Assembly: GCF_000308295.2 (NCBI RefSeq) | Contig: NZ_HG326652.1 | Location: 205,337-269,336 of the forward strand | Length of the DNA: 64,000 bases | From: Afipia birgiae 34632 | Lineage (GTDB): Bacteria; Pseudomonadota; Alphaproteobacteria; Rhizobiales; Xanthobacteraceae | Direction: 5' to 3' | Part shown: one piece after another, positions 1 to 18,302 of the stretch | How positions within the stretch are numbered: the stretch's first letter is position 1 | Layout: every line of letters starts with the position of its first letter | Made by a program: the position numbers and the translations under genes | The notes under the pieces: model-generated | Databases searched by the model: none | Seen by the model: the letters and a program-made list of their open reading frames with translations, nothing else | Told to the model about the DNA's origin: nothing

Positions 1-2
1 GG

Positions 3-1532
3 ACAGGCGGGGCCGCCATCATGGCGGAGGCCTATGGAAAGTTAACCGGCCGGCCGGGCATTTGCTTTGTGACGCGGGGACCAGGCGCCACCAATGCCAG
101 TCATGGAGTCCACATCGCGGCACAGGATTCGACGCCGATGATTCTGTTCGTGGGACAGGTCGAGCGCGGCATGCGCGAGCGCGAGGCGTTCCAGGAACTC
201 GATTACAAGGCTGTTTTCGGTTCGATCGCAAAGTGGGTCGTTGAAATCGATAGTGCCGTTCGAATTCCTGAACTCATCACGCGGGCATTCCGGGTCGCCA
301 TGCAGGGACGCCCCGGGCCGGTCGTTATCGCGTTGCCGGAGGACGTGCTGACGGAGATAGCCACTATCGGCGATGTCGCGCATGTGGAGGCCGTCGAAGT
401 GGCTCCGCGCGTGTCCGACATGGACAAGCTGGTCGCGATGCTGCGTGAGGCGAAGCGGCCGCTCGGTATCGTGGGCGGTTCGCGCTGGACCGAACGTGCG
501 CGCGCGCAATTCGTCGGTTTTGCCGAACGTGCGGGGTTGCCTGTTGCGGCATCATTCCGCCGCGCGCATCTGTTTCCGGCTGATCATCCGAATTTTGCCG
601 GTGACCTTGGCATCGGCCCAAATCCAAAGCTTGTCGCGCGGGTTCGGGATGCGGACCTGCTTCTGATCATTGGCGGCCGAATGTCCGAAATGCCGTCATC
701 GTCCTATACGCTGATCGACGTTCCGACGCCGAAGCAGAAGCTGGTGCATGTTCATCCGGACGCAGAAGAGCTCGGCCGCGTGTATCAGCCAGCGCTGGCC
801 ATTCAGGCGTCGCCGCAATCATTCGCCGATGCGCTTGACGTCTGTGAACTAGGAGCGGCCACAAATGCGCCCAATGTGGCCGCTGCGCGGCAGGACTATA
901 TTGAATGGTCGGAAGCCCCGCTTCCGCTTCCTGGCCGCTTCCAATATGGCGAAGTGGTCCGCTGGCTTCGCGATCGGCTTCCTTCGACGGCCATCATATG
1001 CAACGGCGCTGGAAACTACGCCGGCTGGATCCACCGCTACTATCGTTTTCGCGGTTTTGGCACCCAACTGGCGCCGACATCCGGCTCGATGGGTTACGGC
1101 GTGCCGGCTGCCATTATGGCGAAGCGTCAGACGCCGGATCGTATCGTCGTCGCGATGGCCGGCGATGGCTGCTTTCTCATGAACGGACAGGAATTCGCGA
1201 CCGCCGTGCAATTTGACATCCCGATCATCGTGATCGTCATCGATAATGGCATGTATGGCACGATCCGGATGCATCAGGAGACGCATTACCCGGCACGGGT
1301 TTCGGCGACGGACTTGAAGAATCCTGATTTCGTCGCCTATGCGCGCGCTTTTGGCGGGCACGGTGAGTGGGTGGAAACAACCGACGAATTCGAACCAGCC
1401 TTTGAGCGCGCTATTCAATCCGGCCGTCCGTCAATCCTGCATTGCTTGCTCGATCCGCAAGCAATAACGCCCACTAAAACACTGGACCAGCTTCGAGCAG
1501 GGAGCATGGCGGCGATCAAAAGCTCTGGTTGA
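3..1532 (+). CDS. Thiamine pyrophosphate-dependent enzyme, acetolactate-synthase-like (5' partial)
   Basis: The reading frame is open from the window edge, so the true start lies upstream; 509 residues are visible. Order of regions: the end of the N-terminal pyrimidine-binding domain (MAEAYGKLTGRPG, then TRGPGATNA), a central domain, and a C-terminal TPP-binding domain. The C-terminal domain has the GDG...N signature (MAGDGCFLMNGQEF, then IDNGMYG). This is the IlvB/benzoylformate-decarboxylase-like superfamily. The substrate cannot be read from sequence. It lacks an obvious partner small subunit, so biosynthetic acetolactate synthase is not assured; a decarboxylase or carboligase role in catabolism is equally possible. 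An integrase remnant separates it from the downstream catabolic genes, so membership in that operon is not supported. Confidence 0.85.
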   Translation, partial: TGGAAIMAEAYGKLTGRPGICFVTRGPGATNASHGVHIAAQDSTPMILFVGQVERGMREREAFQELDYKAVFGSIAKWVVEIDSAVRIPELITRAFRVAMQGRPGPVVIALPEDVLTEIATIGDVAHVEAVEVAPRVSDMDKLVAMLREAKRPLGIVGGSRWTERARAQFVGFAERAGLPVAASFRRAHLFPADHPNFAGDLGIGPNPKLVARVRDADLLLIIGGRMSEMPSSSYTLIDVPTPKQKLVHVHPDAEELGRVYQPALAIQASPQSFADALDVCELGAATNAPNVAAARQDYIEWSEAPLPLPGRFQYGEVVRWLRDRLPSTAIICNGAGNYAGWIHRYYRFRGFGTQLAPTSGSMGYGVPAAIMAKRQTPDRIVVAMAGDGCFLMNGQEFATAVQFDIPIIVIVIDNGMYGTIRMHQETHYPARVSATDLKNPDFVAYARAFGGHGEWVETTDEFEPAFERAIQSGRPSILHCLLDPQAITPTKTLDQLRAGSMAAIKSSG

Positions 1533-2693: not shown

Positions 2694-3743
2694 TCAAGTG
2701 CTCGCGCGTTCAATAATTGTGAAACCCAGGTCAATCTGCCTCTGGCCGCGGGGAATGCCATTGAGGCGGCTAAGCATTTCTTCGCCAATGCGAACACCAA
2801 TGTCATACCGGGGAATCCGTATGGTTGTCAGTGGCGGGACCAGTTCTGCCGCGATGATGGAATCATCCAGCCCGGCGATAGCGATACGGCCCGGCACTGA
2901 CCAGCCCTGACGGTGGCATTCAAAAACAGCCCCAACCGCCAGAACGTCGCTTGCTGCAAAGACAGCGTCCAGTTCGGGACAGCGTTGGAGCAAATGTTTC
3001 AATGCCTGTGCGCCACTGTGGAAATCAAAGACCGTGCGTTCTATTCGCTCGGGAAGAACGGGAAGTCCAAGGTCATGCAGCGCTGCAATGTGACCTTTTT
3101 CGCGCATCATTGTTCGATCGTTGTTTTCGGTCAGGCCGCCCATGAAGCCAATATTGCGATACCCCTCTTCATAGAGAAAACGGGTCATGCTGCTTGCCGC
3201 CTCGAAATTAGAAAAGCCCACCACCGTATCGATTGGGTTGTCGGTGAGTGCCCACATCTCAAATATCGGGATATCCGCATTCATGAGCAGCTTTAGAGTT
3301 GTCTCGTTATGAGTGACACCCGTGAGAATGAGGGCGTCAGCGCGTCGGGACAGAAAGGCGCGCGCAAGATTGGCCTCGGCGTCAAGATCGTAGCGGCTGC
3401 TGCCAATCACCAGCTTGTAGTCCGCCTTTTCGACGACATCGGTCAGGCCCTGGATCGTGTCTGCGAATAATGAGTTGGTGATAGTGGGGATGATCACGCC
3501 GATGATCTTGCTTCGTCGCGAGGCGAGGCTTCCGGCAACCAGATCGGGTACGTAATTGGCGCTGGCTATGGCGCTTTGAACGCGCTCCCGCGTTCTCGGT
3601 GAAACCTGTCCCGGATGGTTAAGTACACGCGAGACTGTCACCAGCGAAACTCCGGCGGCCTTGGCGATATCCATCATCCGCTTGCTGGAGCGGGCAGGTC
3701 GCTTCGACTCGTCCGGCGTGGTGGTTCCTTTTGGCGTTTTCAA
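2694..3743 (-). CDS. LacI-family transcriptional regulator
   Basis: The 349-residue protein has an N-terminal LacI helix-turn-helix (MDIAKAAGVSLVTVSRVLN) and a hinge region, then a periplasmic-binding-protein-like sensor domain (IIGVIIPTITNSLFADTIQG). The longest frame begins with TTG at 3743. An ATG at 3677, directly before the HTH as in most LacI proteins, is a strong alternative start. It is divergent from the aldehyde dehydrogenase gene. The 108-bp gap (from the TTG start) contains a sigma70-like promoter and two GC-centred palindromes of the LacI operator type. It is therefore very likely the local regulator of the catabolic operon, and perhaps of itself. The inducer is unknown; a substrate or intermediate of the pathway is the natural inference. 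Confidence 0.9.
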   Translation of the reverse strand: MKTPKGTTTPDESKRPARSSKRMMDIAKAAGVSLVTVSRVLNHPGQVSPRTRERVQSAIASANYVPDLVAGSLASRRSKIIGVIIPTITNSLFADTIQGLTDVVEKADYKLVIGSSRYDLDAEANLARAFLSRRADALILTGVTHNETTLKLLMNADIPIFEMWALTDNPIDTVVGFSNFEAASSMTRFLYEEGYRNIGFMGGLTENNDRTMMREKGHIAALHDLGLPVLPERIERTVFDFHSGAQALKHLLQRCPELDAVFAASDVLAVGAVFECHRQGWSVPGRIAIAGLDDSIIAAELVPPLTTIRIPRYDIGVRIGEEMLSRLNGIPRGQRQIDLGFTIIERAST

Positions 3744-3771
3744 AGCAGTATCCCACTCGATTCTTGAAGCC

Positions 3772-3800
3772 TTGACACTAAACGATGGAAGCGCTTACAT
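3772..3800 (+). promoter_or_regulatory. Sigma70-like promoter of the catabolic operon
   Basis: TTGACA at 3772-3777 is followed after exactly 17 bases by TTACAT at 3795-3800. The first LacI-type palindrome overlaps the spacer and the -10 box, so a bound repressor would block RNA polymerase. The position, 52 bases before the aldehyde dehydrogenase ATG, fits. The promoter is inferred from sequence only. Confidence 0.6.
3785..3800. promoter_or_regulatory. LacI-type operator O1
   Basis: Near-perfect palindrome ATGGAAGCGCTTACAT centred on AGCGCT, the classic form of GalR/LacI-family operators. It overlaps the -10 box. Its centre lies 21 bp from that of the second operator, two helical turns, so both sites face the same side of the DNA. 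Confidence 0.65.
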
Positions 3801-3805
3801 AGCAA

Positions 3806-3821
3806 ATGAAAGCGCTTCCAT
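3806..3821. promoter_or_regulatory. LacI-type operator O2
   Basis: ATGAAAGCGCTTCCAT, the partner of the operator at 3785-3800 with the same AGCGCT core. It lies just downstream of the predicted -10 box, where a repressor would block initiation. The tandem arrangement suggests cooperative binding. Confidence 0.65.
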
Positions 3822-3851
3822 ATCGAAGATGCGCATCCTTCGAGCGTCGAA

Positions 3852-5288
3852 ATGTATGAATTTGAGACTATTGCCGCCGCCTCTGACGGCGGCGCGCGGC
3901 TAGAAACCCGCAATCCAGCTGACCGCCACAGCGTGGCGGGGCGCTATTTGTCTTCCGATCCTTCGCGGATGGGCGATGTGGTTGGTGTTGCTCGCGCTGC
4001 GCAACGGGATTGGGCGGCGCTGTCGGACGCGGCGCGGCTGTCTTTGCTGGCCAGATTCTTGACGTCTCTAAGCGCGCGCGCCCAAGACATCGCGCGCTCG
4101 ATTACTATCGAGCAGGGCAAGCCTCTGGCGGAAGCGCGGGGCGAGGTCACAAAGGCTCTCGACGAGTCTGCTCAAATGCTTGCGAGTGCGGGGCGACCGG
4201 GTGGCGCTGTGCATGCGACGACGAGAGCGGGTGTTACTCCCGTTACGGTGCGTCGTCCGAGAGGTGTGATCGCAGCGTTGACGCCCTGGAATTTTCCAGC
4301 GCTTTCGCCGTTGCGCAAGATTGTGCCGGCGCTCGCCTTTGGAAATGCTATCATTCTCAAGCCTTCCGAATTTTCTCCCGGTGCTGCTTGCATTATCGCC
4401 GAAGTCGCGCGGGATGTGCTGCCCGAAGGCTTGTTGCAGCTTGTCATTGGCGGCGCCGAGATCGGCCGGGAGCTGGTTTCCGTGCCAGGTGTGGATGGGA
4501 TCACCTTCACTGGATCGGTGGCGACCGGTAAGGCAATCTACCGCGCGGCGGCGGACAATCTTGCAGAGCTCAGTTTGGAATTGGGCGGCAAGAATGCCGC
4601 GATCATCCACGATGTTCCCCAGATGGACCGGTGCCTCGATCAGGTTGCGGGCGCGGCCTTCCTGTGCTCGGGGCAGCGTTGCACCGCAATTAGCCGCGTG
4701 ATCGTGAGGTCTGAACTTGCGGAGAGTGTGATCGAGGGGTTGGCTGCTCGCGCTCGCTCACTTGTTCCGGGGGATGGACTACAGCAGGGCACAACCCTTG
4801 GGCCTCTCATATCGGATCAGCATTTGTCGCGCGTTACCGGGATGGTCGCTTTGGGTGTGAGGCGTGGTGCGCGAATTGTTACCGGTGGAGCGGTGCTGAC
4901 AGGTGGGGCTTGTGCCAAAGGGCATTTCTATGCGCCGACGGTGTTGCGTGATGTTACCTCCGACAATCCGGTTGCCCAGGAGGAAATCTTTGGTCCAGTC
5001 ATCAGTGTGCTGACGTACGAAACCCTGGATGAAGCCATGCAGCTTCTTAATGGCGTCGAATTCGGACTCACTGCAGCGTTGTTCTCGTCCGACATTACGG
5101 TGATCGACCGCTTCATCGCGGGAAGCGAGAGCGGAATGATTCACGTCAATCACGGAACGACGCCTGACAGCAATATGCCTTTCGTTGGCATCCGGAATTC
5201 CGGTGTAGGCGCCTGCTCTGTCGGGCCGGGTGCGGCGGCTTTCTATACCACTGAACACGCAGTCTATCTGGGGCGGCCTCAGGTTTGA
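3852..5288 (+). CDS. NAD(P)-dependent aldehyde dehydrogenase (GabD-like)
   Basis: The 478-residue protein is of normal aldehyde dehydrogenase length. It has the cofactor-binding segment TPWNFPALSPLRKIVPALA, the general-base glutamate in LELGGKN (Glu243) and the catalytic cysteine in SGQRCTA (Cys277). It belongs to the broad succinate-semialdehyde dehydrogenase-like group and oxidises an aldehyde to a carboxylate in the cytoplasm. It is the first gene after the operator/promoter region and is followed at once by the split UxaA-type lyase. If the cluster degrades a C3 sulfonate, this enzyme would be the 3-sulfolactaldehyde dehydrogenase. If it degrades sugar acids, it would oxidise a sugar-acid semialdehyde. 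The substrate is inferred from neighbours only. Confidence 0.9.
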   Translation: MYEFETIAAASDGGARLETRNPADRHSVAGRYLSSDPSRMGDVVGVARAAQRDWAALSDAARLSLLARFLTSLSARAQDIARSITIEQGKPLAEARGEVTKALDESAQMLASAGRPGGAVHATTRAGVTPVTVRRPRGVIAALTPWNFPALSPLRKIVPALAFGNAIILKPSEFSPGAACIIAEVARDVLPEGLLQLVIGGAEIGRELVSVPGVDGITFTGSVATGKAIYRAAADNLAELSLELGGKNAAIIHDVPQMDRCLDQVAGAAFLCSGQRCTAISRVIVRSELAESVIEGLAARARSLVPGDGLQQGTTLGPLISDQHLSRVTGMVALGVRRGARIVTGGAVLTGGACAKGHFYAPTVLRDVTSDNPVAQEEIFGPVISVLTYETLDEAMQLLNGVEFGLTAALFSSDITVIDRFIAGSESGMIHVNHGTTPDSNMPFVGIRNSGVGACSVGPGAAAFYTTEHAVYLGRPQV

Positions 5289-5290
5289 AC

Positions 5291-5563
5291 ATGACAGAAC
5301 AGAACAAAGCAGCGCGCAGCGCGGAGCGGCGCCATCTAACGTTGTCGAGTGGCGACAATGTAACGACCGTTCTGGATGATTTGGTTGATGCGTCTTGTCT
5401 TGCGGGTGGTGGCGCAGTCGTGCCCGGTGTCCGGTTTGGTCACAAAGTGGCGCTCACTGATATTGCGGCAGGAGATTCCGTTGTGAAGTACGGAGTTGTC
5501 ATTGGGCATGCAACGCAGCCCATCGCGAAGGGTGAGCATGTCCATGTCCACAATTGCTGCTAA
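5291..5563 (+). CDS. UxaA/SuyA-like small subunit, SAF domain
   Basis: A 90-residue protein corresponding to the N-terminal SAF domain of altronate/galactarate dehydratases, ending in the typical GEHVHVHN motif. In full-length UxaA enzymes this domain is fused to the large domain. In split enzymes such as (R)-sulfolactate sulfo-lyase (SuyA/SuyB) it is a separate subunit. Start taken at ATG 5291, two bases after the aldehyde dehydrogenase stop; a TTG at 5285 is an alternative. Its 3' end overlaps the large-subunit gene, so the two are translationally coupled and probably made in equal amounts. Substrate unproven. Confidence 0.8.
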   Translation: MTEQNKAARSAERRHLTLSSGDNVTTVLDDLVDASCLAGGGAVVPGVRFGHKVALTDIAAGDSVVKYGVVIGHATQPIAKGEHVHVHNCC

Positions 5564-6713
5564 CGGATTTCATGGGTTCGTGCGCCCCGATGGGTCTGTC
5601 GGAGTGCGGAATCATCTCTTGGTTCTTTCGACCGTCGCGTTGACGAATCGGTTGGCGGAGCTTGCTGCAGAAGGTATTCCAGACGCGATCGTTGTAGCCG
5701 GAGATTTTGTGCGTGGCTTGCGCGGAGCTGATCTTCCGCTTCAGGCGCGAGTCTTGCGAGCACTGGTGAGCCACCCGAATGTCGGAGGCGCGCTTGTGCT
5801 ATGTCATGACGTCCCGACCTCGCGTGCACTCGAAGCGGCTTTTGCCGGTGAGGGCAAGCCGGTTTCAGTTCAAGCATTGATGGCCGCGAAAGGCATGACC
5901 GATGCTGTCGCCCGTGCGCGCGCGGCTGCATCCGACCTTGCGCACTCTTTAACCGGAGCGACGCGCAGCCTTGTCCCACTGTCATGCTTGACGGTTGCGT
6001 TGGAGTGCGGTGGTTCCGACGCCACAAGCGCTCTGGCCGCGAATCCGTCGATTGGCAGATTTGTGGATCGACTGATCGATGCCGGGGGCACCGCAATCGT
6101 GTCGGAGACGGCGGAGTTCGTTGGTGCCGAGTCGGTTGTGAGCGCGCGAGCCGCCAATCAGAAGGTATCAGCAGACATCCTCGCAGCCCTGGCCCGGTCC
6201 GAGGCGTTTCTGTCGGAGGATGGTGAAAGCTATCGCGGTGTGAATCCCACTCAAGAGAACATTGAAGCGGGATTGACCACACTGATTGAGAAATCGATGG
6301 GAGCGGTGGCCAAAACGGGGAGCCGTCCTTTTGTGGGTTGTTTGACGTTCGGGTCAAAACCGCCGGCGCCGGGACTCTACTTCATGGACACCCCGTTCTT
6401 TAGCCCGGTCTCGATCACAGGCATGGTTGCCGCTTCCGCACAGGTTGTTTTGTTTGCAGTCGGCGTGTTCAACCCTTCGGGCAGCCCGCTGGCGCCAACA
6501 CTGAAAGTATGTGGCAACCCTCGCACGCTTGCGGAATGGAAAGACAGCCTTGATGTCGACGTGAGTGCCGCGGTGACGGACGGAGCAAGCCTCAACGAGA
6601 TGGCTGACAAGGTTGAGCTTGCTTTGCGCAAGGTTCTGGAAGGCGAGAAAACCATGTCGGAAGCTTGGAGTGAGGGGCAGATCATCATCCCGAGCACGAA
6701 GTCCTTGCTGTGA
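5538..6713 (+). CDS. UxaA/SuyB-like lyase, large subunit
   Basis: The 391-residue protein matches the catalytic part of the UxaA family: GFVRPDGSVGVRNHLLVLST near the N-terminus, LTVALECGGSDATSALAANP in the middle, and a C-terminal PTLKVCGNPRT. These Fe-dependent enzymes remove water from altronate or galactarate, or sulfite from (R)-sulfolactate. The start at ATG 5538 is chosen because it follows an AAGGGTGAG ribosome-binding site and overlaps the small subunit by 26 bp; longer in-frame extensions lack this. A TauE/SafE exporter and a NitT/TauT-type transporter nearby favour sulfo-lyase activity (sulfolactate to pyruvate plus sulfite), but a sugar-acid dehydratase cannot be excluded. Confidence 0.85.
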   Translation: MSMSTIAANGFHGFVRPDGSVGVRNHLLVLSTVALTNRLAELAAEGIPDAIVVAGDFVRGLRGADLPLQARVLRALVSHPNVGGALVLCHDVPTSRALEAAFAGEGKPVSVQALMAAKGMTDAVARARAAASDLAHSLTGATRSLVPLSCLTVALECGGSDATSALAANPSIGRFVDRLIDAGGTAIVSETAEFVGAESVVSARAANQKVSADILAALARSEAFLSEDGESYRGVNPTQENIEAGLTTLIEKSMGAVAKTGSRPFVGCLTFGSKPPAPGLYFMDTPFFSPVSITGMVAASAQVVLFAVGVFNPSGSPLAPTLKVCGNPRTLAEWKDSLDVDVSAAVTDGASLNEMADKVELALRKVLEGEKTMSEAWSEGQIIIPSTKSLL

Positions 6714-6761
6714 GCGCAGGTTACTAGGCTGCAAAAATCCGAATCTAAGGGGAGGAACAAA

Positions 6762-7784
6762 ATGAAGAGAAAACTGAGAACGATACTGTTGGCAGCAGCA
6801 TTCGCCGTAGCCGCGGCGGCTCCGGTCGCGGCGCTTGATCAGGTGCGCACCAATAGTATCACGGCCTATACGGGCTTCTATATCTACGTTGCCGATACGA
6901 TGGGCTTCTTCAAGAAACACGGCATAGATGCATCGCCACGCTGGTTTCCGAGCGGGGCGCCTATCATGCAGGGAGCCGCAGGCGGACAATGGGACATGGC
7001 CTTTCTGGGGGCTCCGCCGATGGTTGTTGGTGGTCCCGCGCTGGGGCTGGTCACTGTCGGAATGATCGCCGAGGAAGGCGGTATGCACGAACTGATCGGG
7101 CGGCCGGCCTATGTTGACGCGGCGAAGGCTGATTCAAGCAAGCTTCGTGGAGCCCGCATTTTCGTGACCACCCTGTCCACCGGTCACTACATGGTCGAGG
7201 CCTGTCTACGGCATCTTGGATTGTCCACGAATGACGTCCGCATTGTTCCCAGTGAACAGCAGGCGACGCTGTCGGCATTTGTCGCCGGCGAAGGGGATCT
7301 GGCGCAGGTGTGGTCTCCGCAAACCACCATGCTGCAGGCTAGGGGAAACAAGGTTATCTGCGGCGCCAAGGAACTGGCTCTGAGCATGCCGGGTATCAGT
7401 GTCGCGCATCCCAATTTCATCGCCAACAACGGTTCAGACAAGATCACCCGCTGGTTGCGAGCCACCGCTGAGGCTGTGGAATGGATTCGTCAGGATCGCA
7501 AGCGCACCTTCGAACTTTATAAAAAGTACGACGCTTTTCGTGGTTTCAACTTCAAGGATGACATGCTCGAAGGCGAAGTCGATCTGGTTATGAATACCTA
7601 CATGAACGTCGATCAGCAGCTTGCGATGCTGAAACCCGCTGCAGGCAAGCCTGAACCCGCGATCGCGGCATCATTCAGCGCGATTGCTGAGTTCTTCATC
7701 CGTCAGGGACGTCTAAAGACCGTGCCCGATTATCGCCCATATATCGACAGCCGATATCTTGAGGCCGTTAAGAGCAATCCCTGA
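6762..7784 (+). CDS. ABC transporter substrate-binding protein, NitT/TauT type
   Basis: The 340-residue secreted protein begins with a clear signal peptide (KRKLRTILLAAAFAVAAAAP, cleavage near VAALDQ). It continues as an NMT1/SsuA-like periplasmic binding protein: GFYIYVADTMGFFKKHGID, then GGQWDMAFLGAPP. A strong Shine-Dalgarno (AAGGGGAGG) precedes ATG 6762. It captures the substrate for the transporter encoded by the next three genes. Members of this family bind sulfonates, nitrate or bicarbonate, pyrimidine precursors and other small anions; the ligand cannot be read directly. Highest expression would be expected here, consistent with the best ribosome-binding site of the operon. Confidence 0.9.
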   Translation: MKRKLRTILLAAAFAVAAAAPVAALDQVRTNSITAYTGFYIYVADTMGFFKKHGIDASPRWFPSGAPIMQGAAGGQWDMAFLGAPPMVVGGPALGLVTVGMIAEEGGMHELIGRPAYVDAAKADSSKLRGARIFVTTLSTGHYMVEACLRHLGLSTNDVRIVPSEQQATLSAFVAGEGDLAQVWSPQTTMLQARGNKVICGAKELALSMPGISVAHPNFIANNGSDKITRWLRATAEAVEWIRQDRKRTFELYKKYDAFRGFNFKDDMLEGEVDLVMNTYMNVDQQLAMLKPAAGKPEPAIAASFSAIAEFFIRQGRLKTVPDYRPYIDSRYLEAVKSNP

Positions 7785-7847
7785 TTTACGCGGGTTTCCG
7801 GGCGGACAGGTTGCCGCCCGTTACCCCGGACCGACAAGGTTTTCGCA

Positions 7848-8648
7848 ATGACGACAACGATCGAATACCGCAATGTCTCGATGTCTTTCGGGACGGGAGC
7901 GCAAGCTGTCCGTGCTCTCGATCCAACCAATTTCAAGATTGGCAATCAGGAATTCCTGATGATCGTGGGTCCATCAGGATGCGGAAAGAGTACACTTCTG
8001 CACGTCACCTCGGGATTGCTCAAGCCGACAACCGGCGAGGTGTTACTTGACGGTCAGCCCATTACTGCGCCCGGTCCAGACAAGGCCCTGGTGTTCCAGA
8101 ATTTCTCGTTGTTCCCATGGAAAACAGTATGGGAAAATATCGATTTTGGTTTGCGCATTAACAACCTGCCACGAGACGAACGGGAAGCGCGGGTTCGTCA
8201 CTACATCAAGCTAACCGGCCTTAGCGGGTTTGAGCACCGTTATCCTCGCCAGCTTTCGGGTGGAATGCAGCAGCGCGTTGCTATTGCGCGCAGCTTTGTT
8301 CTGCGGCCGCGCGTATTGCTGATGGACGAGCCGTTCGCCGCGCTGGACGCGCAAAATCGCGCAATCATGCAGGAAGAGCTGGTACGTATCTGGTCCGAGC
8401 AGCGCTCGACAGTCTTGTTCATTACCCACTCGGTCGAGGAGGCTGTCTATCTGGCCGATCGCGTGATGGTAATGAGCCGGCGGCCTGGTCAGATCAAGGA
8501 AGTAATCGACGTCGGAGCAGTCACGGGCGCTTCTCATTGGAGGACGCGACCTTTGAACGATGTGGCCTCCGATGCGAAATTTCAGAATCTGCGGCATCAT
8601 GTCTGGGAGAGTGTGCGCAGCGAAATCAGTCCTCTTGTGGGGGCTTGA
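7848..8648 (+). CDS. ABC transporter ATP-binding protein (SsuB/TauB-like)
   Basis: The 266-residue ATPase has a Walker A motif GPSGCGKST (near residue 41), a Q-loop region (LVFQNFSLFPW), the ABC signature LSGGMQQR, Walker B VLLMDEPF and the switch histidine in FITHSVEEA. The LFPWKTV segment is typical of the nitrate/taurine/sulfonate importers. It energises import through the two permeases directly downstream, whose genes follow with gaps of 3 and 1 bases. The C-terminal 40 residues extend past the conserved ATPase fold, as in SsuB/TauB. Confidence 0.92.
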   Translation: MTTTIEYRNVSMSFGTGAQAVRALDPTNFKIGNQEFLMIVGPSGCGKSTLLHVTSGLLKPTTGEVLLDGQPITAPGPDKALVFQNFSLFPWKTVWENIDFGLRINNLPRDEREARVRHYIKLTGLSGFEHRYPRQLSGGMQQRVAIARSFVLRPRVLLMDEPFAALDAQNRAIMQEELVRIWSEQRSTVLFITHSVEEAVYLADRVMVMSRRPGQIKEVIDVGAVTGASHWRTRPLNDVASDAKFQNLRHHVWESVRSEISPLVGA

Positions 8649-8651
8649 ACA

Positions 8652-9416
8652 GTGGCTCGTGCGCTCGTTTCGGTTGCGTCGCTGGGTCTGCTGCTGCTGC
8701 TTTGGTGGTACGCGACCGAGGTGGCACAGCTTGTAAGCCCATTCGTACTACCATCGCCGGGTGATGTGATCTCCGGTCTGGCGCGAGTCAGTGAAGGCTA
8801 CATGGGCGGCTCGCTGATGGAGCATTTTACGGCCAGCATGTCGGTCATGCTCTCCGGCTTTCTTCTGGCGCTCGTGATAGGCATTCCACTCGGGATTTTG
8901 ATGGCCTGGATTCCGATCATGGACCGGCTGTTCGGGCCTCTGCTGACTGTTCTGCGCCCAATTCCGCCGCCTGCCTGGATTCCACTTGCGATTCTGTGGT
9001 TCGGAATCGGAATTGCGGGCAAGACCTTTATCGTCTTCGTAGCTGCTTTCGTGCCGGTACTGGTGAACGCATATGTTGGCTGCAAGGAAACGCCGATCAA
9101 CCTTCTCAATGCGGCACGTACGCTCGGGGCGAGTCAGCGCACGATCCTGATGGAGGTGGTGTTGCCGTCCGCGATGCCGGTGATCCTGACCGGTGCACGC
9201 ATCTCGCTGGGTGTTGCCTGGGCGACGATCGTTGCGGCTGAGCTTGTAGTCGCAGATCAGGGCTTTGGATTCCTCATCATGAATGGATATCGGAACTTTG
9301 AAGCGAACATCATGGCAGGTGGCATGTTGCTCATCGGTGTGATCGGGATTTTGATGAATCTCGGATTTGTCTGGCTTGAGCGCGTACTGCTGCGCTGGAA
9401 TGCCGAGGTTCGATAA
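8652..9416 (+). CDS. ABC transporter permease 1 (SsuC/TauC-like)
   Basis: A 254-residue inner-membrane protein with about six hydrophobic segments. It has the binding-protein-dependent permease (EAA) loop AARTLGASQRTILMEVVLPS, which contacts the ATPase. The start is GTG 8652, three bases after the ATPase stop. Together with the very similar downstream permease it would form a heterodimeric channel. Most SsuC/TauC systems use one permease twice, so a gene pair is slightly unusual. Confidence 0.9.
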   Translation: MARALVSVASLGLLLLLWWYATEVAQLVSPFVLPSPGDVISGLARVSEGYMGGSLMEHFTASMSVMLSGFLLALVIGIPLGILMAWIPIMDRLFGPLLTVLRPIPPPAWIPLAILWFGIGIAGKTFIVFVAAFVPVLVNAYVGCKETPINLLNAARTLGASQRTILMEVVLPSAMPVILTGARISLGVAWATIVAAELVVADQGFGFLIMNGYRNFEANIMAGGMLLIGVIGILMNLGFVWLERVLLRWNAEVR

Positions 9417-9417
9417 C

Positions 9418-10221
9418 ATGAGCAATCTTGGTGAGCGAGCCTACGCTGGTGTTCTTATGCTGGGGCGAGGAGTCACGGTCCTTGCCGGCCTTGCGGTCTG
9501 GGTAGTACTTTGGTGGGGGGTGGTCAGGATATTCGGAATATCCGCTGATTTCCTGCCTTCCCCTGCGGATGTGTTTTCCAGTCTAACCAGACTCGTCACT
9601 CACTCGATCGGAGAAGGGCCGCTGCATGTGCATGTCGTGGCCAGCTTCCTGCGGTTTATGGGTGGGTTCGTTCTCGCTGTTGTGGTGGGAATACCGCTTG
9701 GCTTTATCATGGGGCAGTATCGTCTCCTTGATTGGGCGTTGAATCCGATCTTTGAATCGGTGCGGTACATCCCGCCGATCGCGTGGGCGCCGTTCGCAAT
9801 CTTGTGGTTCGGTGCGAACTTCGGTGCGCAAACGTTCGTTATCTTCATATCGACGTTGCCGCCGATTCTGATCAGTGCCTACAGGGCTATGCAGTCCGTT
9901 GATCCCAGCCTTATCGCTGCCGCGCGAACGCTGGGGGCTTCCAACCGCACCATTATTCTCGAGGCCGGTCTGCCGTCGTCAGTCCCGGTTCTGGTCAGTG
10001 GCCTGCGGATCGGAGTGGCAACGGGCTGGATGGCGTTGATTGCTGCGGAGATCGTTGCGGGAACAGGCGCGCGCGCGGGGCTCGGCTATCTGATTCTCAT
10101 CGGACAACAGACGCTTCAGGCAGGCATTACGATTGGCGTGATGTTGGTGATCGGTGTGTTGGGTGGCGCGCTGGATTACGCGCTTCAGCTGCTTGAACGC
10201 AGAGTCATGCATTGGCGCTGA
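9418..10221 (+). CDS. ABC transporter permease 2 (SsuC/TauC-like)
   Basis: A 267-residue membrane permease with the EAA loop AARTLGASNRTIILEAGLPS. The ATG at 9418 is chosen: it lies one base after the preceding stop and leads straight into a normal N-terminus, while the upstream in-frame extension runs back into the previous gene. It is a paralogue of the preceding permease and the probable partner in a heterodimer. Gene order binding protein - ATPase - permease - permease is complete. Confidence 0.9.
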   Translation: MSNLGERAYAGVLMLGRGVTVLAGLAVWVVLWWGVVRIFGISADFLPSPADVFSSLTRLVTHSIGEGPLHVHVVASFLRFMGGFVLAVVVGIPLGFIMGQYRLLDWALNPIFESVRYIPPIAWAPFAILWFGANFGAQTFVIFISTLPPILISAYRAMQSVDPSLIAAARTLGASNRTIILEAGLPSSVPVLVSGLRIGVATGWMALIAAEIVAGTGARAGLGYLILIGQQTLQAGITIGVMLVIGVLGGALDYALQLLERRVMHWR

Positions 10222-10249
10222 GACGCCTCGCGAAAAGAAAGTCAAAAGA

Positions 10250-11848
10250 ATGAACGATACCCGATATGATTTCATCATTGTGGGGGCGGGGTCGGCTGGC
10301 TGTGTCCTTGCCAACAGACTGAGCGCTGGTGGCCAGCATACCGTGCTGGTGCTGGAGGCTGGACCACGAGATCGGAATCCTTGGATTCATGTCCCTGTCG
10401 GTTATGCCAAACTGATCTTCAACCAGAATTTGAGTTGGAATTATCAGACAGAGCCTGAACCCGGTGCAGGCAATCGCCGCATTGCATGGCCGCGTGGCAG
10501 GGTTCTGGGCGGTTCGAGCTCGATAAACGGGCTGGTCTATATTCGCGGTCAGCGCGAGGATTACGATCAATGGCGCCAGATGGGCAATGTTGGATGGGGC
10601 TACGACGATGTCTTGCCCTATTTTGTAAGATCTGAAAATCAGGTTCGCGGAAGCAGCACCTATCATGGCGCCAGTGGACCGCTTGCTGTGTCGGACCTCG
10701 CTGACCGGTACGAACTATGCGATGCATTTATCGATGCAGCAGAGCAAGTTGGGATTCCCCGAAACGCTGATTTCAATGGAGAGCAGCAGGAAGGAGCGGG
10801 TTACTACCAGCTGACCACGCGAAACGGTTTGCGGTGTTCGGCGGCAAAGGCCTTTCTCAAGCCGGCGCTTCGCCGGTCAAATTTGAGATTGGAAACAAAT
10901 GCTCAGGTCAGTCGCATCTTGTTCAAGGGTCGGCACGCCACCGGAGTCGACTGTATTGTGGATGGAGTAAGAAAGCAGTTCTTCGCCGGCCGTGAGGTTA
11001 TTCTTACCGCTGGTGCCATCAACTCACCTCAGCTTCTCCAGCTCTCGGGAATTGGGCCAGAAGGACTGCTCCGGGAGCATGGAGTCGATGTTGTCGATCA
11101 TCGTCCCGGTGTCGGTGGGAATCTGCAGGATCACTATCAGGTTCGTCACGTGATGCGCTGTACCCGTCCGATCACATTGAACGACAAGATGGCGAGCCTT
11201 GCTGGACGGATAGGCATTGGGCTTGAGTATGTGCTGCATCGCCGCGGTGCACTGACTGTGAGCGCAGGGCAAGCGGGGGTGTTCGCGCGAACCCGGCCGG
11301 ATCTTGCAAGCCCTGACATGCAAATCCATTTTATGACGCTGAGCACTGACCAGCCCGGCAAGTCATTGCATGACTTCTCGGGTTTCACATCGTCTGTCTG
11401 CCAACTGCGTCCCGAAAGCCGAGGTGTGGTGCAGATCGCTGGGAACGACCCGTTACGCCCACCGCGCATTGAAGCACGTTATCTCAGCGCCGAAACTGAT
11501 CGGCGTACGATCGTCGATGCGATCCGGTTAAATCGCAAAATCCTCTCTGCACCGGCCCTTGCGGAGTTGATCGCGGAGGAGGTTCGTCCGGGTCCGCATC
11601 TGGAATCCGATGACGAACTTCTGGCTTTCGCACAACAGACCGGCAGCTCAATTTTCCATCCGGTCGGGACATGCAAGATGGGCAGCGATCCCATGGCTGT
11701 TGTGGACTCGCAATTGCGAGTTCATGGTATCAAGGGTTTGCGTGTCGCGGATGCATCAATCATGCCCACGTTGATCTCGGGTAACACGAACGCGCCGGCC
11801 ATCATGATCGGTGAAAAGGCTGCTGATCTCATCGCGTCTTCGATTTGA
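10250..11848 (+). CDS. GMC-family FAD-dependent alcohol dehydrogenase
   Basis: The 532-residue flavoprotein carries an N-terminal Rossmann FAD site (FIIVGAGSAGCVLANRLS), the GMC signature GRVLGGSSSINGLVYIRGQ, and the C-terminal catalytic region FHPVGTCKMG followed by NTNAPAIMIGEKAADLI. The length and motifs fit choline/alcohol dehydrogenase-type members, which oxidise primary alcohols to aldehydes. ATG 10250 is preceded by an A/G-rich stretch. In context it could oxidise the imported alcohol to the aldehyde used by the aldehyde dehydrogenase at the start of the operon, for example 2,3-dihydroxypropanesulfonate to sulfolactaldehyde. That substrate is inference. Confidence 0.9.
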   Translation: MNDTRYDFIIVGAGSAGCVLANRLSAGGQHTVLVLEAGPRDRNPWIHVPVGYAKLIFNQNLSWNYQTEPEPGAGNRRIAWPRGRVLGGSSSINGLVYIRGQREDYDQWRQMGNVGWGYDDVLPYFVRSENQVRGSSTYHGASGPLAVSDLADRYELCDAFIDAAEQVGIPRNADFNGEQQEGAGYYQLTTRNGLRCSAAKAFLKPALRRSNLRLETNAQVSRILFKGRHATGVDCIVDGVRKQFFAGREVILTAGAINSPQLLQLSGIGPEGLLREHGVDVVDHRPGVGGNLQDHYQVRHVMRCTRPITLNDKMASLAGRIGIGLEYVLHRRGALTVSAGQAGVFARTRPDLASPDMQIHFMTLSTDQPGKSLHDFSGFTSSVCQLRPESRGVVQIAGNDPLRPPRIEARYLSAETDRRTIVDAIRLNRKILSAPALAELIAEEVRPGPHLESDDELLAFAQQTGSSIFHPVGTCKMGSDPMAVVDSQLRVHGIKGLRVADASIMPTLISGNTNAPAIMIGEKAADLIASSI

Positions 11849-11886
11849 CAGCGCGCCACTATGAGTAAATTTGATGTTGGCTGTCG

Positions 11887-11902
11887 AAGGGGAATTCCCC
11901 TT
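11887..11902. other. Perfect 16-bp palindrome upstream of the exporter gene
   Basis: AAGGGGAATTCCCCTT is fully self-complementary. It lies 38 bases after the GMC gene stop and 62 bases before the GTG of the TauE/SafE gene. It could be an operator or form a small hairpin in RNA; no T-run follows, so a terminator is unlikely. Confidence 0.35.
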
Positions 11903-11964
11903 GGCTGCCTTACGACGCCGCTTCCGGACCCCGTTCTCGTCATGCGGGCGAAGGCCTCGCGATC

Positions 11965-12744
11965 GTGAGCGTAGTCATTAACGCCGCGCTTGGGTCAGGA
12001 GCTCTTGTGGGCTTCTCGCTCGGCTTGATCGGTGGCGGCGGTTCCATCCTGGCAACGCCGCTTTTGCTCTACGTCGTTGGCGTTTCGCAGCCGCATATCG
12101 CAATCGGCACCGGGGCGCTGGCGGTCTCGGCGACTGCTTTCATCAATCTGGCCAGTTATGCCCGCGCCGGCGTTGTGCGCTGGCGCCTTGCAGCCGTGTT
12201 CGCGGTGGTCGGTACCCTCGGTGCGTTCGTAGGATCGAGTGCGGGCAAGCTGATTGACGGCAACAGACTCCTATTCCTGCTCGGGCTGGTGATGCTTGCC
12301 GTCGGGGCCATGATGCTGCGCCCGCGCAACGAGACTGCGGCTCCCGAGAGGGATGCACATCTCAAGACCTGCTTGCTGACGGCCGGCATTGCATTTGTCA
12401 CCGGCACCGCTTCCGGGTTCTTCGGTATCGGTGGTGGTTTCCTGATTGTCCCAGGCCTGTTGCTTGCGACCCGCATGCCGATGATCAACGCGGTCGGTTC
12501 TTCACTTTTGGCGGTCGGATGCTTCGGTCTTGCGACCGCGCTCAACTATGCGTTCTCCGGCCTGGTCGACTGGCTGGTTGCTGGCCAGTTTATCGCAGGC
12601 GGCCTCGTCGGAGGACTTTTCGGCATTGCGCTCGCGAGCCGTTTGTCGCGCGGCAAAGACACTCTCAAGCGCATTTTCGCCGGCGTGATCTTTGCGGTGG
12701 CAGCTTACGTCCTCTATCGCAGCGGACAAGCGATGTTGAATTAG
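11965..12744 (+). CDS. TauE/SafE-family sulfite/organosulfonate exporter
   Basis: A 259-residue inner-membrane protein with about eight hydrophobic helices in two homologous halves. Each half starts with a glycine-rich motif (GFSLGLIGGGGSILATPLLL and SGFFGIGGGFLIVPGLLL). These are diagnostic of TauE/SafE (DUF81) transporters. The start is GTG 11965. Family members export sulfite, sulfoacetate or related anions, though many are uncharacterised. Its place at the end of a cluster with a SuyAB-like lyase and a TauT-type importer fits a role in removing toxic sulfite released inside the cell. Confidence 0.85.
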   Translation: MSVVINAALGSGALVGFSLGLIGGGGSILATPLLLYVVGVSQPHIAIGTGALAVSATAFINLASYARAGVVRWRLAAVFAVVGTLGAFVGSSAGKLIDGNRLLFLLGLVMLAVGAMMLRPRNETAAPERDAHLKTCLLTAGIAFVTGTASGFFGIGGGFLIVPGLLLATRMPMINAVGSSLLAVGCFGLATALNYAFSGLVDWLVAGQFIAGGLVGGLFGIALASRLSRGKDTLKRIFAGVIFAVAAYVLYRSGQAMLN

Positions 12745-13510
12745 TCTGGCGGGACGCAGGCTGTGAATTGGTAGCGAAAAGGTAGTTGTCGGTGAACAGG
12801 GCAATGCTGATTTCGAATGGCTGGCTGGTATTAAGTGCTGAGAACTGTCATCCGACGATACTTGCAGCAGAAACTCCCTGTTACAGACTAAGAACTCCCT
12901 GTTTTTCGAAATGTTTTCCCTGTTAGTTTTTATAGGACCGAGAAGTCGCAGCAGCACCGCTGTTTTAGGTCTCAGCGGGCCGATTTCAATATCCGAATTT
13001 CGACGTTTTGGATCGCTGAGACTGAGACAGGTTCGAACTTGCGATTTTGAACTGGAAGGCGGTCTTAAAAAGTAGCATTTGTTGCCGTTGCTTGAGCCGT
13101 GAAATGGCAATTGCGCCAGTTGGTACAGCCTAGCGGAGCGATCATGGCTTATCGCCACCGGCGGCAATAGCGAAGCGCTTCGCAAGGTCGCCACCACTCT
13201 GGGTTCTTTCCATAAAGCCACTCATGGCGACTACCGCAGAAGCGATTGTTCTGGATCATTTGAAACAGTTCGCGATTTTTTCGAGTATCGGTCAAGCGAC
13301 CTTTGCATAACTCTCAAAAAATAGCGGCATGAGCGAGGCAAGCGATGGCGCGCTTCAACATCGAGCGGGACATCCCCGACATGGGCGTGACGAGTCGACT
13401 TTCAAGGTTAAATGACCTCGACGTCGTGGATCCGCCACTGGGGATTTCGAATTGACCGCGGCAATTGTCGATCGCTTTCCTAGATCACTAGATCAAGAGC
13501 GCTTGCCCTA
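12745..13510. other. Intergenic region with short periodic repeats and a possible gene scrap
   Basis: No intact gene. Three copies of an 11-base word (CTCCCTGTT core) occur at exact 21-bp spacing between 12872 and 12924. At 13345 a short frame MARFNIERDIPDMGV resembles the N-terminus of small DUF4242-type proteins but loses similarity after 15 residues, so it is at most a scrap. The rest shows no coding pattern. Confidence 0.45.
12872..12924. repeat. Three 11-bp repeats at 21-bp periodicity
   Basis: AACTCCCTGTT at 12872-12882, AACTCCCTGTT at 12893-12903 and TTTTCCCTGTT at 12914-12924. Each start is 21 bp from the last, two helical turns. The intervening bases differ, which resembles iterated protein-binding sites more than a simple tandem duplication. 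Function unknown. Confidence 0.55.
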
Positions 13511-15145
13511 ATGTCTTATCTCACCCAGAACCTTGATGTCGTATTGCCACGCCGTCCGTCGGATGCTTGGTCGCAAATGTCGAATCCGATGTCAATCGAC
13601 CCGCAGAGGCAAACCCCTTTGCTTCAGACGATAGGCCTGACCAAGCGCTACGGTACCTTTCTCGCCACTGATTCCATCGACATCGATATCTGGCCGCGGG
13701 AAATCCATGCCCTGCTCGGAGAGAATGGAGCCGGAAAATCGACGCTGGTCAAAAAAATCTACGGTCTGATTCAACCTAGCGAAGGCGAAATGCGCTGGCA
13801 GGGGAAGCCCATGACCCTCGCCGGCCCGTCTGAGGCGCGGGCACTAGGCATCGGCATGGTGTCTCAGCACTTTTCCCTGTTCGACAATCTCACCGTCGCC
13901 GAAAACGTGGCGCTGGGTCTCGACGGCAAGGAACCGTTCAAGGACATGTCTGCCCGTCTGGAGGAAGTGGCCAATGTTTATGGGCTTCCGCTTGATCCGA
14001 AGCGGGAAGTTTGGCGGCTCTCCGTCGGGGAACGTCAGCGCATCGAGATCGTCCGGGCATTGATGCAAGACCCCAAGTTCCTGATCCTCGACGAGCCGAC
14101 GGCGGTGCTGACGCCGCAGGAAGCCGATCAACTCTTCATCGTGCTGGAACGCCTTAAGGCGGAGGGCCGTGCGATCCTCTACATCAGCCACAAATTGGAA
14201 GAGGTGAAACGGCTCTGCGACACGGCAACGATTCTGCGCGGCGGCAAAAGAATCTCGATCTGCGTTCCGCGGAACGAGACCGCGGCCTCCCTTGCCCGCA
14301 TGATGGTCGGTGCCGACGTCAAGGAAGTGAAAGCAGCAGCCGGTCGGCGAACGACAGTGCCGCGCCTCGTTGTCAACGATCTCAACATGGAGCTCGACGA
14401 TCCTCACGGAGTCCGGCTTGAACACATCTCGCTGGAGCTGAAGGGTGGTGAAATCTTGGGCATCGCTGGCGTCGCCGGCAATGGCCAGAACGAACTATTT
14501 TCCGCACTTTCGGGAGAACGTCTTGCGAAGGATCCCGGCATGATCGTGATCGATGGACACGAAGCCGGACATCTTTCCATTACCTCTCGACGCAAGCTCG
14601 GAGCGGCTTTCGTTCCTGAAGAGCGTTTGGGTCACGGCACCGTACCGCGCATGAAGCTCTCTGAAAACGCTCTGCTCACGGGCCATGCGGCGAGCGGAAT
14701 GGTCCAGCATGGATTTGTCAACATGGCAGCAATGCTGGCGACGGTCGACCGCGCCACTGAGATCTTCGACGTACGCAAGGCGAAACGCGATCCTGAAGCG
14801 GCAAGCCTGTCCGGCGGCAACCTGCAGAAATTCATCGTCGGCCGCGAAATCCTTCGCAACCCGACGGTGCTCGTCGTCAGTCAGCCGACCTGGGGCGTCG
14901 ATGCTGGCGCCGCCGCCGTGATCCGGCAAGCCCTGCTCGATCTCGCAGCCAGCGGCGCCGCAGTCCTGGTGACAAGCCAGGACCTCGATGAGCTCACCGA
15001 GATCACTGACCGAATCGCCGTGATGTTTCATGGGCATTTGTCAGAGCCGTTGGCGACTTCAGACGCCAGCCGCGAGAAGCTCGGCCTGCTAATGGGGGGC
15101 AGCACTTTACCTCAAATGGAGGCGAACGATGCTGTTGGTGCTTGA
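13511..15145 (+). CDS. BMP-family ABC transporter, double ATP-binding protein
   Basis: The 544-residue protein contains two ABC domains. The first has Walker A GENGAGKST, signature LSVGERQR and Walker B FLILDEPTAVLTP. The second is degenerate at the nucleotide site (GVAGNGQNEL in place of a Walker A) but keeps LSGGNLQKFIVGREILRNP. This is the RbsA/YufO-like layout used by nucleoside and purine importers with BMP-type binding proteins. The start at 13511 is uncertain; ATG 13577 or 13589 would remove 22-26 residues without touching the ATPase. It is translationally coupled to the first permease (17-bp overlap). Neighbouring purine enzymes suggest purine base or nucleoside uptake. Confidence 0.9.
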   Translation: MSYLTQNLDVVLPRRPSDAWSQMSNPMSIDPQRQTPLLQTIGLTKRYGTFLATDSIDIDIWPREIHALLGENGAGKSTLVKKIYGLIQPSEGEMRWQGKPMTLAGPSEARALGIGMVSQHFSLFDNLTVAENVALGLDGKEPFKDMSARLEEVANVYGLPLDPKREVWRLSVGERQRIEIVRALMQDPKFLILDEPTAVLTPQEADQLFIVLERLKAEGRAILYISHKLEEVKRLCDTATILRGGKRISICVPRNETAASLARMMVGADVKEVKAAAGRRTTVPRLVVNDLNMELDDPHGVRLEHISLELKGGEILGIAGVAGNGQNELFSALSGERLAKDPGMIVIDGHEAGHLSITSRRKLGAAFVPEERLGHGTVPRMKLSENALLTGHAASGMVQHGFVNMAAMLATVDRATEIFDVRKAKRDPEAASLSGGNLQKFIVGREILRNPTVLVVSQPTWGVDAGAAAVIRQALLDLAASGAAVLVTSQDLDELTEITDRIAVMFHGHLSEPLATSDASREKLGLLMGGSTLPQMEANDAVGA

Positions 15146-16220: not shown

Positions 16221-17124
16221 AGCGATCATTCTGTCGGTGCTCGCGGCATCGACCCCGCTGTTGATCGCGGCCACTGGCGAATTAGTAACCGAGCGGGCCG
16301 GTGTTCTCAATCTGGGCGTCGAGGGGATGATGATCGTGGGCGCCGCCTGTGGTTTTGGCGGCGCTCTGCTCACCGGCTCGACCACCGTCGGCGCTATCTG
16401 CGGCATTGCCGCTGGAACGGCCCTATCGCTGGTGTTCGCGCTGATGACGTTGGGCCTCGCCGTCAATCAGGTCGCTACCGGTCTAGCATTGACGATTCTG
16501 GGTATAGGCCTCTCAGGCCTGATCGGCGCAGGCTTTGTCGGCGAGCGAATTACGCCTGCGCCGCAGCTGTATATTCCTGGACTGACTGATATTCCGGTTT
16601 TGGGCCGTATTTTATTCGGTGAAGACGGCTTTGTATATGCTTCGTTGTTGATGGTCGTCGGCGTCTGGCTGTTTCTATATCGTACCCGCTCCGGATTGAT
16701 CATCCGCGCGGTCGGTGACAATCACGTTTCCGCACACGCGCTGGGATACCCGGTGCTCAAAATCCGCCTGGGTGCCGTAATGTTCGGCGGCGCTTGCGCC
16801 GGCCTCGCCGGAGCCTATTTGCCGCTGGCTTATACGCCCTTCTTTGTTCCTGGCATGACTGCCGGACGCGGCTGGATCGCGTTGGCGCTGGTAGTGTTTT
16901 CATCATGGCGGCCGGGCCGTCTCGTGATCGGTGCCTATCTGTTCGGCGCGGTCACGATCCTGCAGCTTCACGCGCAGGGGTGGGGCGTCGGCATTCCCTC
17001 GCAATTCATGTCGGCCTTACCATATCTCGCCACCGTGATCGTTCTCGTTCTGATTTCGCGCGCAAGAGCCGGTGGTTCGACCGCACCCGCGGCCTTGGGA
17101 ACAGTCTTCGTGCCCGATCGATAA
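16207..17124 (+). CDS. BMP-family ABC transporter permease 2
   Basis: A 305-residue permease, the shorter partner in this transporter type. It has the characteristic TGELVTERAGVLNLGVEGMM near the N-terminus and several membrane segments. The ATG at 16207 overlaps the preceding permease by 14 bp. The pair, double ATPase and binding protein together make a complete importer. Confidence 0.9.
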   Translation: MELFEAIILSVLAASTPLLIAATGELVTERAGVLNLGVEGMMIVGAACGFGGALLTGSTTVGAICGIAAGTALSLVFALMTLGLAVNQVATGLALTILGIGLSGLIGAGFVGERITPAPQLYIPGLTDIPVLGRILFGEDGFVYASLLMVVGVWLFLYRTRSGLIIRAVGDNHVSAHALGYPVLKIRLGAVMFGGACAGLAGAYLPLAYTPFFVPGMTAGRGWIALALVVFSSWRPGRLVIGAYLFGAVTILQLHAQGWGVGIPSQFMSALPYLATVIVLVLISRARAGGSTAPAALGTVFVPDR

Positions 17125-17127
17125 ATA

Positions 17128-17160: not shown

Positions 17161-17193
17161 ATCGACCGCCCCCCTCGGTAACCGGAGAAGCCT

Positions 17194-18273: not shown

Positions 18274-18302
18274 CGCTAAGCTAGCTGTCCCGAGAAGATC
18301 GA

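Follow-up and report, generated by a model that had tools for sequence, protein, structure and literature searches.

Might a bacterium degrade a three-carbon (C3) hydroxysulfonate with a flavoprotein in the place of the NAD-dependent dehydrogenases of the known pathway? The question is raised by ten genes of Afipia birgiae 34632, which lie in a 64,000-nucleotide stretch of contig NZ_HG326652.1 (the window, whose positions are used as coordinates throughout). They encode a LacI/GntR-type regulator, an aldehyde dehydrogenase (ALDH), the two subunits of a UxaA-family lyase, a NitT/TauT-type ABC importer, a GMC flavoprotein and a TauE/SafE family exporter, and an earlier note had read them as a sulfonate-degradation unit. 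The present analysis leans towards an operon under LacI control that would serve the breakdown of a C3 hydroxysulfonate, built on a proposed GMC-ALDH-lyase core. That the sulfonate has three carbons and not two is suggested by the ALDH and the lyase, which stand in the place of Xsc. The most likely candidate substrate is 2,3-dihydroxypropanesulfonate (DHPS), a narrower proposal that is made with less assurance.

The lyase and its place in the UxaA family

Lyase loci came from one scan of the sequence collection, in which the best 80 of 508 were kept. Of these, 21 (L005-L024 and L033) are close relatives at 50-58% identity, and the 59 others, more distant members of the UxaA family, served as controls. 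Eight SuyB references were used. That of Cupriavidus pinatubonensis has annotated hpsN and hpsO as neighbours; that of Paracoccus lies with LacI, a NitT importer and a histidinol dehydrogenase of hpsN-like type, 60% identical to Cupriavidus HpsN; that of Methylobacterium adjoins TauE and Ldh-type genes; the Rhodococcus one was chosen by similarity alone; and four come from relatives' genomes. Escherichia coli UxaA and GarD were the dehydratase references. The dehydratase-type group of 65 rows was defined by exclusion, most of its members having no known function, and omits the plasmid rows L086, L096 and L097 and 13 archaeal second paralogs. In a tree of 110 rows the window lyase and the 21 close relatives formed one clade with support of 100 (the close clade). 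Together with four SuyB and three other rows this clade made up a set of 29 rows (96), from which GarD and UxaA lay apart; the tree was built by a quick method and has some long branches, and one row of the set may have joined it by a long branch. A more careful tree had 46 rows, and in it all eight SuyB, 11 of the 22 close rows and five further rows formed a 24-row set (96/96) that excluded every one of the 22 dehydratase-type rows used, which were sampled from the 65. The close clade was a separate branch inside this set, with the window lyase outside the SuyB clade. A firm placement of the lyase with the sugar-acid dehydratases had been named beforehand as the result that would refute the sulfonate reading, and in neither tree did the C-subunit group with them.

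Residue patterns were examined at the positions that separate the two groups (numbers are counted from the 5496 start of the C-subunit). In the excerpts of the report by Watanabe and colleagues used here (PMC6336799), four cysteines are conserved across the UxaA/GarD superfamily, sulfolactate sulfo-lyase excepted. Three alignment columns, which probably correspond to numbered cysteines in those excerpts, held Cys in 53-54 of the 65 dehydratase-type rows, in none of the 22 close rows and in none of the eight SuyB; a further cysteine, C171, is kept in all three groups. D303 (65/65) and R324 (62/65) of the dehydratase-type rows are both lost in SuyB and the close clade, and the dehydratase-type G301 is lost in the close clade, where F301 and F302 are invariant. 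R73 is present in all eight SuyB and all 22 close rows. The small subunit keeps the HVHVHN motif, and a KTKRW tail is found in seven of eight SuyA vs none of the 22 close-clade SAF subunits, the window's included; as a mark of SuyA the tail is an observation on these eight. By these signs the lyase would work like SuyAB and yet not be a member of it. Tree grouping and residue signature together support a lyase of sulfonate type, and on both the reading as a sugar-acid dehydratase was rejected. As judged from sequence the lyase is a sister subfamily of SuyAB, not SuyAB itself, so that the label "SuyAB-like" given to it in the earlier note stands for the grouping and the shared residue losses but not for membership.

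The split of the lyase into two subunits had also been taken as a mark of SuyAB. That criterion was rejected: the SAF ORF is separate in 48 of the 59 control loci and fused in none, the other 11 giving no SAF hit. One other UxaA-family protein was found in the organism's own genome (E 0.001); it is fused and groups with GarD-like rows.

Two further patterns were seen in this family. The 11 dehydratase-type rows without Cys in the third column coincide exactly with the 11 from loci with a second C-domain paralog, and the second paralogs carry Cys at the three columns in 13 of 13 cases (two plasmid loci, L096 and L097, included) and C171 in none. In the archaeal loci with two C-domain genes (L027, L039, L041, L051, L052, L054, L056, L059, L060, L073 and L083) the first gene lacks the three Cys and has C171, and the second is the reverse; such pairs look like two sites split between subunits. 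Separately, UxaA-family lyases that lack the three Cys and belong neither to SuyB nor to the close clade occur at L091 (Variovorax), L003, L004, L112 and L113, with hydroxyacid and Ldh-type dehydrogenase genes adjoining the lyase at L091. These are possible additional sulfonate lyases.

Partners of the lyase in the window and in related loci

A GMC gene accompanies the lyase in 17 of the 21 close loci and in none of the 59 controls, which bears out the GMC protein as a conserved partner. After lyases were thinned at 90% identity the counts were 14/17 and 0/49 (Fisher p ~9e-12, shared ancestry ignored); locus lengths vary in both sets. The gene is absent at L006, L007, L012 and L033, of which L012 is cut short where sister loci have it. 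Contigs of the GMC-lyase loci are titled alpha-, beta- and gammaproteobacterial among others, and include marine and lake names. At L023 the order SAF-lyase-binding protein-ABC-permeases-GMC is kept, on a contig cut upstream.

The window GMC protein is choline-dehydrogenase-like in NCBIfam, scoring 528 bits against the BetA equivalog (cut-off 732) and 642 against the PRK02106 subfamily (cut-off 605). It is 52-58% identical to genes of ise-type or xsc clusters, vs 42% to E. coli BetA. Plasmid searches with it gave matches in 1246 records, and the surroundings of six, drawn from the best 25 of the 1246, were fetched. Three were Leisingera/Ruegeria genes, two of them in IclR-TRAP-GMC clusters and the third adjoined by a TRAP binding protein near the end of its record. 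A Sinorhizobium relative, annotated as two overlapping coding sequences, lies in a cluster of IclR, GMC, MFS, xsc and YeiH. The likeness to IseJ, which we take to be a GMC protein, is drawn from the gene order of the relatives' clusters. Flavin-dependent oxidation of a hydroxysulfonate has a precedent in this isethionate dehydrogenase, as described in the excerpts of PMC6453916 used here. A flavin GMC enzyme is found in the operon in place of HpsN/O/P, and the chemistry proposed for it is less unprecedented than had been supposed. Among the matches listed from the open-access literature, no paper joined sulfolactate with a GMC or choline dehydrogenase, and choline sulfatase, GMC, altronate dehydratase and the UxaA family never appeared all together (at most two did, in choline metabolism).

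"GabD-like" was a loose description of the ALDH: of the curated models it comes nearest to two for ketoglutarate-semialdehyde (dioxovalerate) dehydrogenases, and all 25 models shown are far below cut-off. Two sulfonate-binding arginines have been proposed for RlGabD in the excerpted part of PMC10599462. A sulfonate type had been suggested for the importer, and both the NCBIfam SsuA/TauC models (below cut-off) and the plasmid matches of its binding protein agree with this. The two top-listed matches are from Paracoccus (115 bits, 6e-26), the other 13 listed scoring at most 86 bits, and one of the two lies inside an hpsN-like/suyAB locus, L085. Importers of the close loci are of NitT-type ABC (binding protein in 11/21) or TRAP type (adjacent in 6/21), and in the fetched hpsN loci LacI is paired with importers of these same two types.

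Two other enzymes recur beside the close-clade lyases. A mandelate-racemase-family protein is found in 10 of the 21 close loci vs one of the 59 controls, with KxK, D-N, E, E, D, H and E invariant in 10/10; it is a candidate sulfolactate racemase that would replace SlcC/ComC (for example L010 1872-3017). Searched with the relatives' protein, the organism's own genome gave only weak matches. A choline-sulfatase-family protein is found in 8 of the 21 close loci vs none of the controls; the single full-length example scanned in NCBIfam exceeds the curated cut-off there. Its choline hairpin WYHN is lost in 8/8, though W129 and E386 are kept (residue roles are from excerpts of PMC5870055 and PMC9063841). 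At L033 a sulfolactate-dehydrogenase-like gene adjoins the lyase (303 bits, cut-off 500) and a TauE gene lies ~5 kb away, its product being 51% identical to the window TauE. Genes of the ComA family (phosphosulfolactate synthase, PF02679) were also seen near the lyase in two betaproteobacteria, at L008 2751-3560 (by PF02679 scan) and L015 ~2768 (by 82% identity to the L008 protein).

Gene content, control and the proposed pathway

Domains were called at curated Pfam cut-offs and best models compared in NCBIfam. The gene list of the earlier note was confirmed: every ORF is intact and in place with its domains above the Pfam cut-offs (permease 2 was scanned in NCBIfam only). The features are collected in Table 1.

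Table 1 Genes and putative operators of the proposed C3-hydroxysulfonate operon.
Feature	Position	Strand	Evidence and remarks
LacI/GntR-type regulator	2694-3743	-	Pfam LacI 66 bits, Peripla_BP_3 98 bits; divergent from operon
AAGCGCTT palindrome pair	3789-3817		Starts 21 bp apart; between divergent regulator and ALDH
Aldehyde dehydrogenase (ALDH)	3852-5288	+	Pfam Aldedh 443 bits
SAF-domain small lyase subunit, SuyA-like	5291-5563	+	Pfam SAF 30.6 bits; ends HVHVHNCC
UxaA-type lyase C-subunit, SuyB-like	5538-6713	+	Pfam GD_AH_second and GD_AH_C, 235 and 68 bits
NitT/TauT (SsuA-family) periplasmic binding protein	6762-7784	+	NCBIfam SsuA_fam 5.5e-22, 78 bits; cut-off 163.5 not reached
ABC transporter ATPase	7848-8648	+	Pfam ABC_tran 118 bits
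ABC permease 1, TauC-like	8652-9416	+	Pfam BPD_transp_1; NCBIfam TauC 186 bits, below cut-off
ABC permease 2	9418-10221	+	NCBIfam SaoP/TauC models, below cut-off; ORF from 9367, ATG 9418 read from sequence
GMC flavoprotein alcohol dehydrogenase, IseJ-like	10250-11848	+	Pfam GMC_oxred_N 183, GMC_oxred_C 139 bits
TauE/SafE family exporter	11965-12744	+	Pfam TauE 169 bits, cut-off 32.6

The ORF of the C-subunit opens at 5496 with a likely ATG at 5538, and that of the GMC protein at 10154 with a likely ATG, read from the sequence, at 10250. The plus-strand genes from 3852 to 12744 share one strand and close spacing behind a single operator pair, with the TauE gene starting 116 bp past the GMC gene. 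The AAGCGCTT pair gives one match in the window and none in 100 shuffles, and its two members are likely LacI-family operators that overlap a possible promoter; a TTGACA at 3772-3777 was read by eye and was not returned by the promoter scan. That scan was uninformative for the window as a whole (1 promoter-like site vs 3.7 expected, 12 terminator-like sites vs 11.1 expected). An extended form, GAAGCGCTT, occurs seven times in the window when both strands are counted, vs 0.85 expected, two of the seven being the operator sites of the operon. Two more perfect GAAGCGCTTC palindromes, operator-like, lie at 13172-13181 and 44834-44843, one of which precedes a Bmp-type ABC importer block (13511-18273).

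From this gene content we infer the reactions, their order and the substrate. The ABC importer would take up the sulfonate, and the IseJ-like GMC flavoprotein would oxidise the primary alcohol of DHPS to sulfolactaldehyde, handing the electrons on to the respiratory chain. Sulfolactaldehyde would then be converted by the ALDH to sulfolactate, which the two-subunit, cysteine-poor SuyAB-like lyase would cleave to pyruvate and sulfite. TauE would export the sulfite, and SorA, encoded elsewhere in the genome, could oxidise it. The SorA sulfite dehydrogenase scores 706 bits (cut-off 600) and lies next to a c-type cytochrome; SoxC is also present (635 bits, cut-off 420). The remark that no sulfite dehydrogenase is visible is thus right for the operon genes and does not extend to the genome, where with TauE a means of handling sulfite is encoded. 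Neither Xsc nor choline sulfatase was found over cut-off in the genome, and no HpsN, HpsO or HpsP was found in the operon by Pfam and NCBIfam scans. HisD/HpsN-family proteins in the genome match at 49-50% (two) and 39% (one); such matches in the relatives fall into groups at 54% or above, 46-48%, and 40% or below.

Isethionate was rejected as the substrate, since there is no Xsc over cut-off in the genome and the lyase is of C3 type. Upstream of the operon, a TPP enzyme at 21-1532 was considered as Xsc and discarded, scoring 209 bits vs 620 for the Xsc model. It belongs to the PRK08199 family (808 bits; window 1-1532), and its genome frame of 1143 codons extends upstream of the window.

Among the closest known systems is SuyAB, the (R)-sulfolactate sulfo-lyase (EC 4.4.1.24) of Paracoccus and C. 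pinatubonensis. It shares with the window lyase the split SAF and C-domain, the loss of the three dehydratase Cys and the 24-row set, and some of its loci also carry LacI with NitT or TRAP importers; it differs in clade, pocket residues and the KTKRW tail, and its partners are HpsN/O/P or SlcC/ComC where those of the window are GMC and ALDH. The HpsN/HpsO/HpsP pathway for DHPS, whose genes in the excerpts of PMC4334477 include hpsR (LacI) and hpsKLM, has in common a LacI regulator, an importer and the conversion, proposed for the window, of an alcohol to a hydroxy acid ahead of the lyase, but its dehydrogenases are NAD-dependent. The ise clusters (with iseKLM, or with an MFS transporter and xsc) likewise place a GMC-type flavoprotein, assigned by gene order, in a sulfonate cluster, with Xsc where the window has ALDH and lyase. 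The sulfatase, GMC and ALDH of the BetC-BetA-BetB choline-sulfate pathway occur together also in some relatives, whereas the window operon lacks a sulfatase, has a GMC protein under the BetA equivalog cut-off and has an added lyase. UxaA, GarD and the D-arabinonate dehydratases have the same Pfam domains as the window lyase and carry the three Cys, G301, D303 and R324, all lost in the window's clade. Related gene sets occur in other bacteria.

The operon was probably acquired. A tyrosine-recombinase (integrase) remnant at 1898-2716, directly beside the operon, scores 22.9 bits for Phage_int_M (cut-off 27) and suggests an integration event. Lyase relatives at E <= 1e-60 occur in 3 of the 149 genomes of the family, namely this one and two at 37% identity; the genus has six other genomes in the set, and all six lack one. 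Because the remnant adjoins the block and relatives are so sparse, the block looks acquired. Outside the operon, 13511-23686 holds a Bmp/PnrA-type ABC importer, an amidohydrolase, XdhC and a molybdopterin dehydrogenase, perhaps for purine breakdown.

Alternative readings and implications

Several observations weigh against a C3-hydroxysulfonate operon acting on DHPS. The lyase is 27-31% identical to SuyB (29-33% by BLAST), and the residues that replace those of the dehydratases are F301, F302, S303, P304 and V324 in the close clade vs S, A, A, A and Q in SuyB; because these discriminating positions differ, the close clade may act on a substrate other than that of SuyB, or on one of other handedness. 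A GMC tree sets the window and L023 apart from the 16 other cluster GMCs, so that the window's lineage differs from that of 16 of its 17 relatives, and no supported branch joins the window GMC to ise-type genes. On this tree the GMC gene has probably been recruited or replaced more than once. Of the fetched GMC relatives, a Shinella pair has another setting and a Cupriavidus record no annotation. By eye, against the SSADH motif, one of the two RlGabD arginine positions looks kept in the ALDH and the other absent. The match of the binding protein to Paracoccus is remote (25.9% identity), the Cupriavidus hpsN-suyAB locus has an MFS transporter instead, and TauE is found in only one of the 21 close loci. 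DHPS alone explains neither the mandelate-racemase-family nor the choline-sulfatase-like enzyme of the relatives. True SuyB (67-85%) is present in 4 of the 21 relative genomes and HpsN, at 54% or above, in 10; the close clade is therefore not simply their replacement, and insofar as some relatives own the known DHPS route, its lyase would do something additional there. This might be the handling of the other enantiomer, of another sulfonate or of a compound freed by the sulfatase-like enzyme. The same architecture may thus serve another 2-hydroxy-3-X substrate, such as the precursor of the other sulfolactate enantiomer, a larger hydroxysulfonate, or a sulfate-ester or cationic analogue with a non-sulfite leaving group, which is considered possible though on the doubtful side. 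Its support comes from the pocket residues, the two invariant Phe among them, from the co-occurring SuyB, from the sulfatase-family genes and from solved-structure matches of the GMC protein and ALDH, the best of which include choline and betaine-aldehyde dehydrogenases. Set against it are the importer, TauE, the sulfolactate-dehydrogenase-like gene of L033, ComA at L008 and L015 and the ise/xsc-type relatives of the GMC protein, all of which point to sulfonates, together with the lost hairpin and the lack of such a sulfatase above cut-off in the window's genome. The choline-sulfate pathway itself was rejected, as neither operon nor genome encodes a sulfatase over cut-off and the relatives' enzymes lack WYHN; a cationic substrate in the relatives keeps some small likelihood, given W129 and E386.

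A sugar-acid or polyol pathway, in which GMC and ALDH make an aldonate that the split UxaA pair dehydrates, is unlikely. It would agree with the Pfam names, a galactarate dehydratase match of 160 bits (cut-off 731), a regulator that in NCBIfam comes nearest to a gluconate-type GntR (297 bits; cut-off 400, not reached) and three inspected split UxaA pairs that adjoin sugar-acid genes. The trees and residues of the lyase separate it from the dehydratases, however, the ten genes include no aldolase, FAH-type hydrolase or kinase by Pfam and NCBIfam, and a NitT/TauT importer and TauE are atypical of sugar-acid genes. It is just as improbable that the importer, the lyase and two enzymes of general alcohol oxidation are chance neighbours on an acquired segment, with no joint pathway. 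The adjoining integrase remnant and the distinct lineage of the window GMC would fit such a segment, but the same-strand close order behind one operator pair, the gene order kept at L023 and the pairing of GMC with the lyase across proteobacterial contigs and in no control are not expected of it. A C3-hydroxysulfonate operon remains the favoured reading.

Algae and plants make small sulfur compounds of the C3-sulfonate type. Among these, DHPS and sulfolactate are important forms in which sulfur passes between phototrophs and bacteria, and hpsN and suyAB are markers by which the degraders of the two can be sought. Within the UxaA family, the three-cysteine residue test may help to tell sulfonate-type lyases from sugar-acid dehydratases. 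More tentatively, the locus may represent a second, independent route for C3 hydroxysulfonates, in which a flavin GMC enzyme replaces the NAD-dependent HpsN and the lyase forms a subfamily apart from SuyAB. Relatives would add to it a sulfolactate racemase of the mandelate-racemase family and a choline-sulfatase turned to a new use, which would give access to C3 sulfonates that are sulfated or of the opposite hand. The family models that such loci match are named galactarate dehydratase, choline dehydrogenase and choline-sulfatase. Because these names point to sugar acids and choline, a set of degraders would, if this is true, have been missed by the hpsN and suyAB markers.

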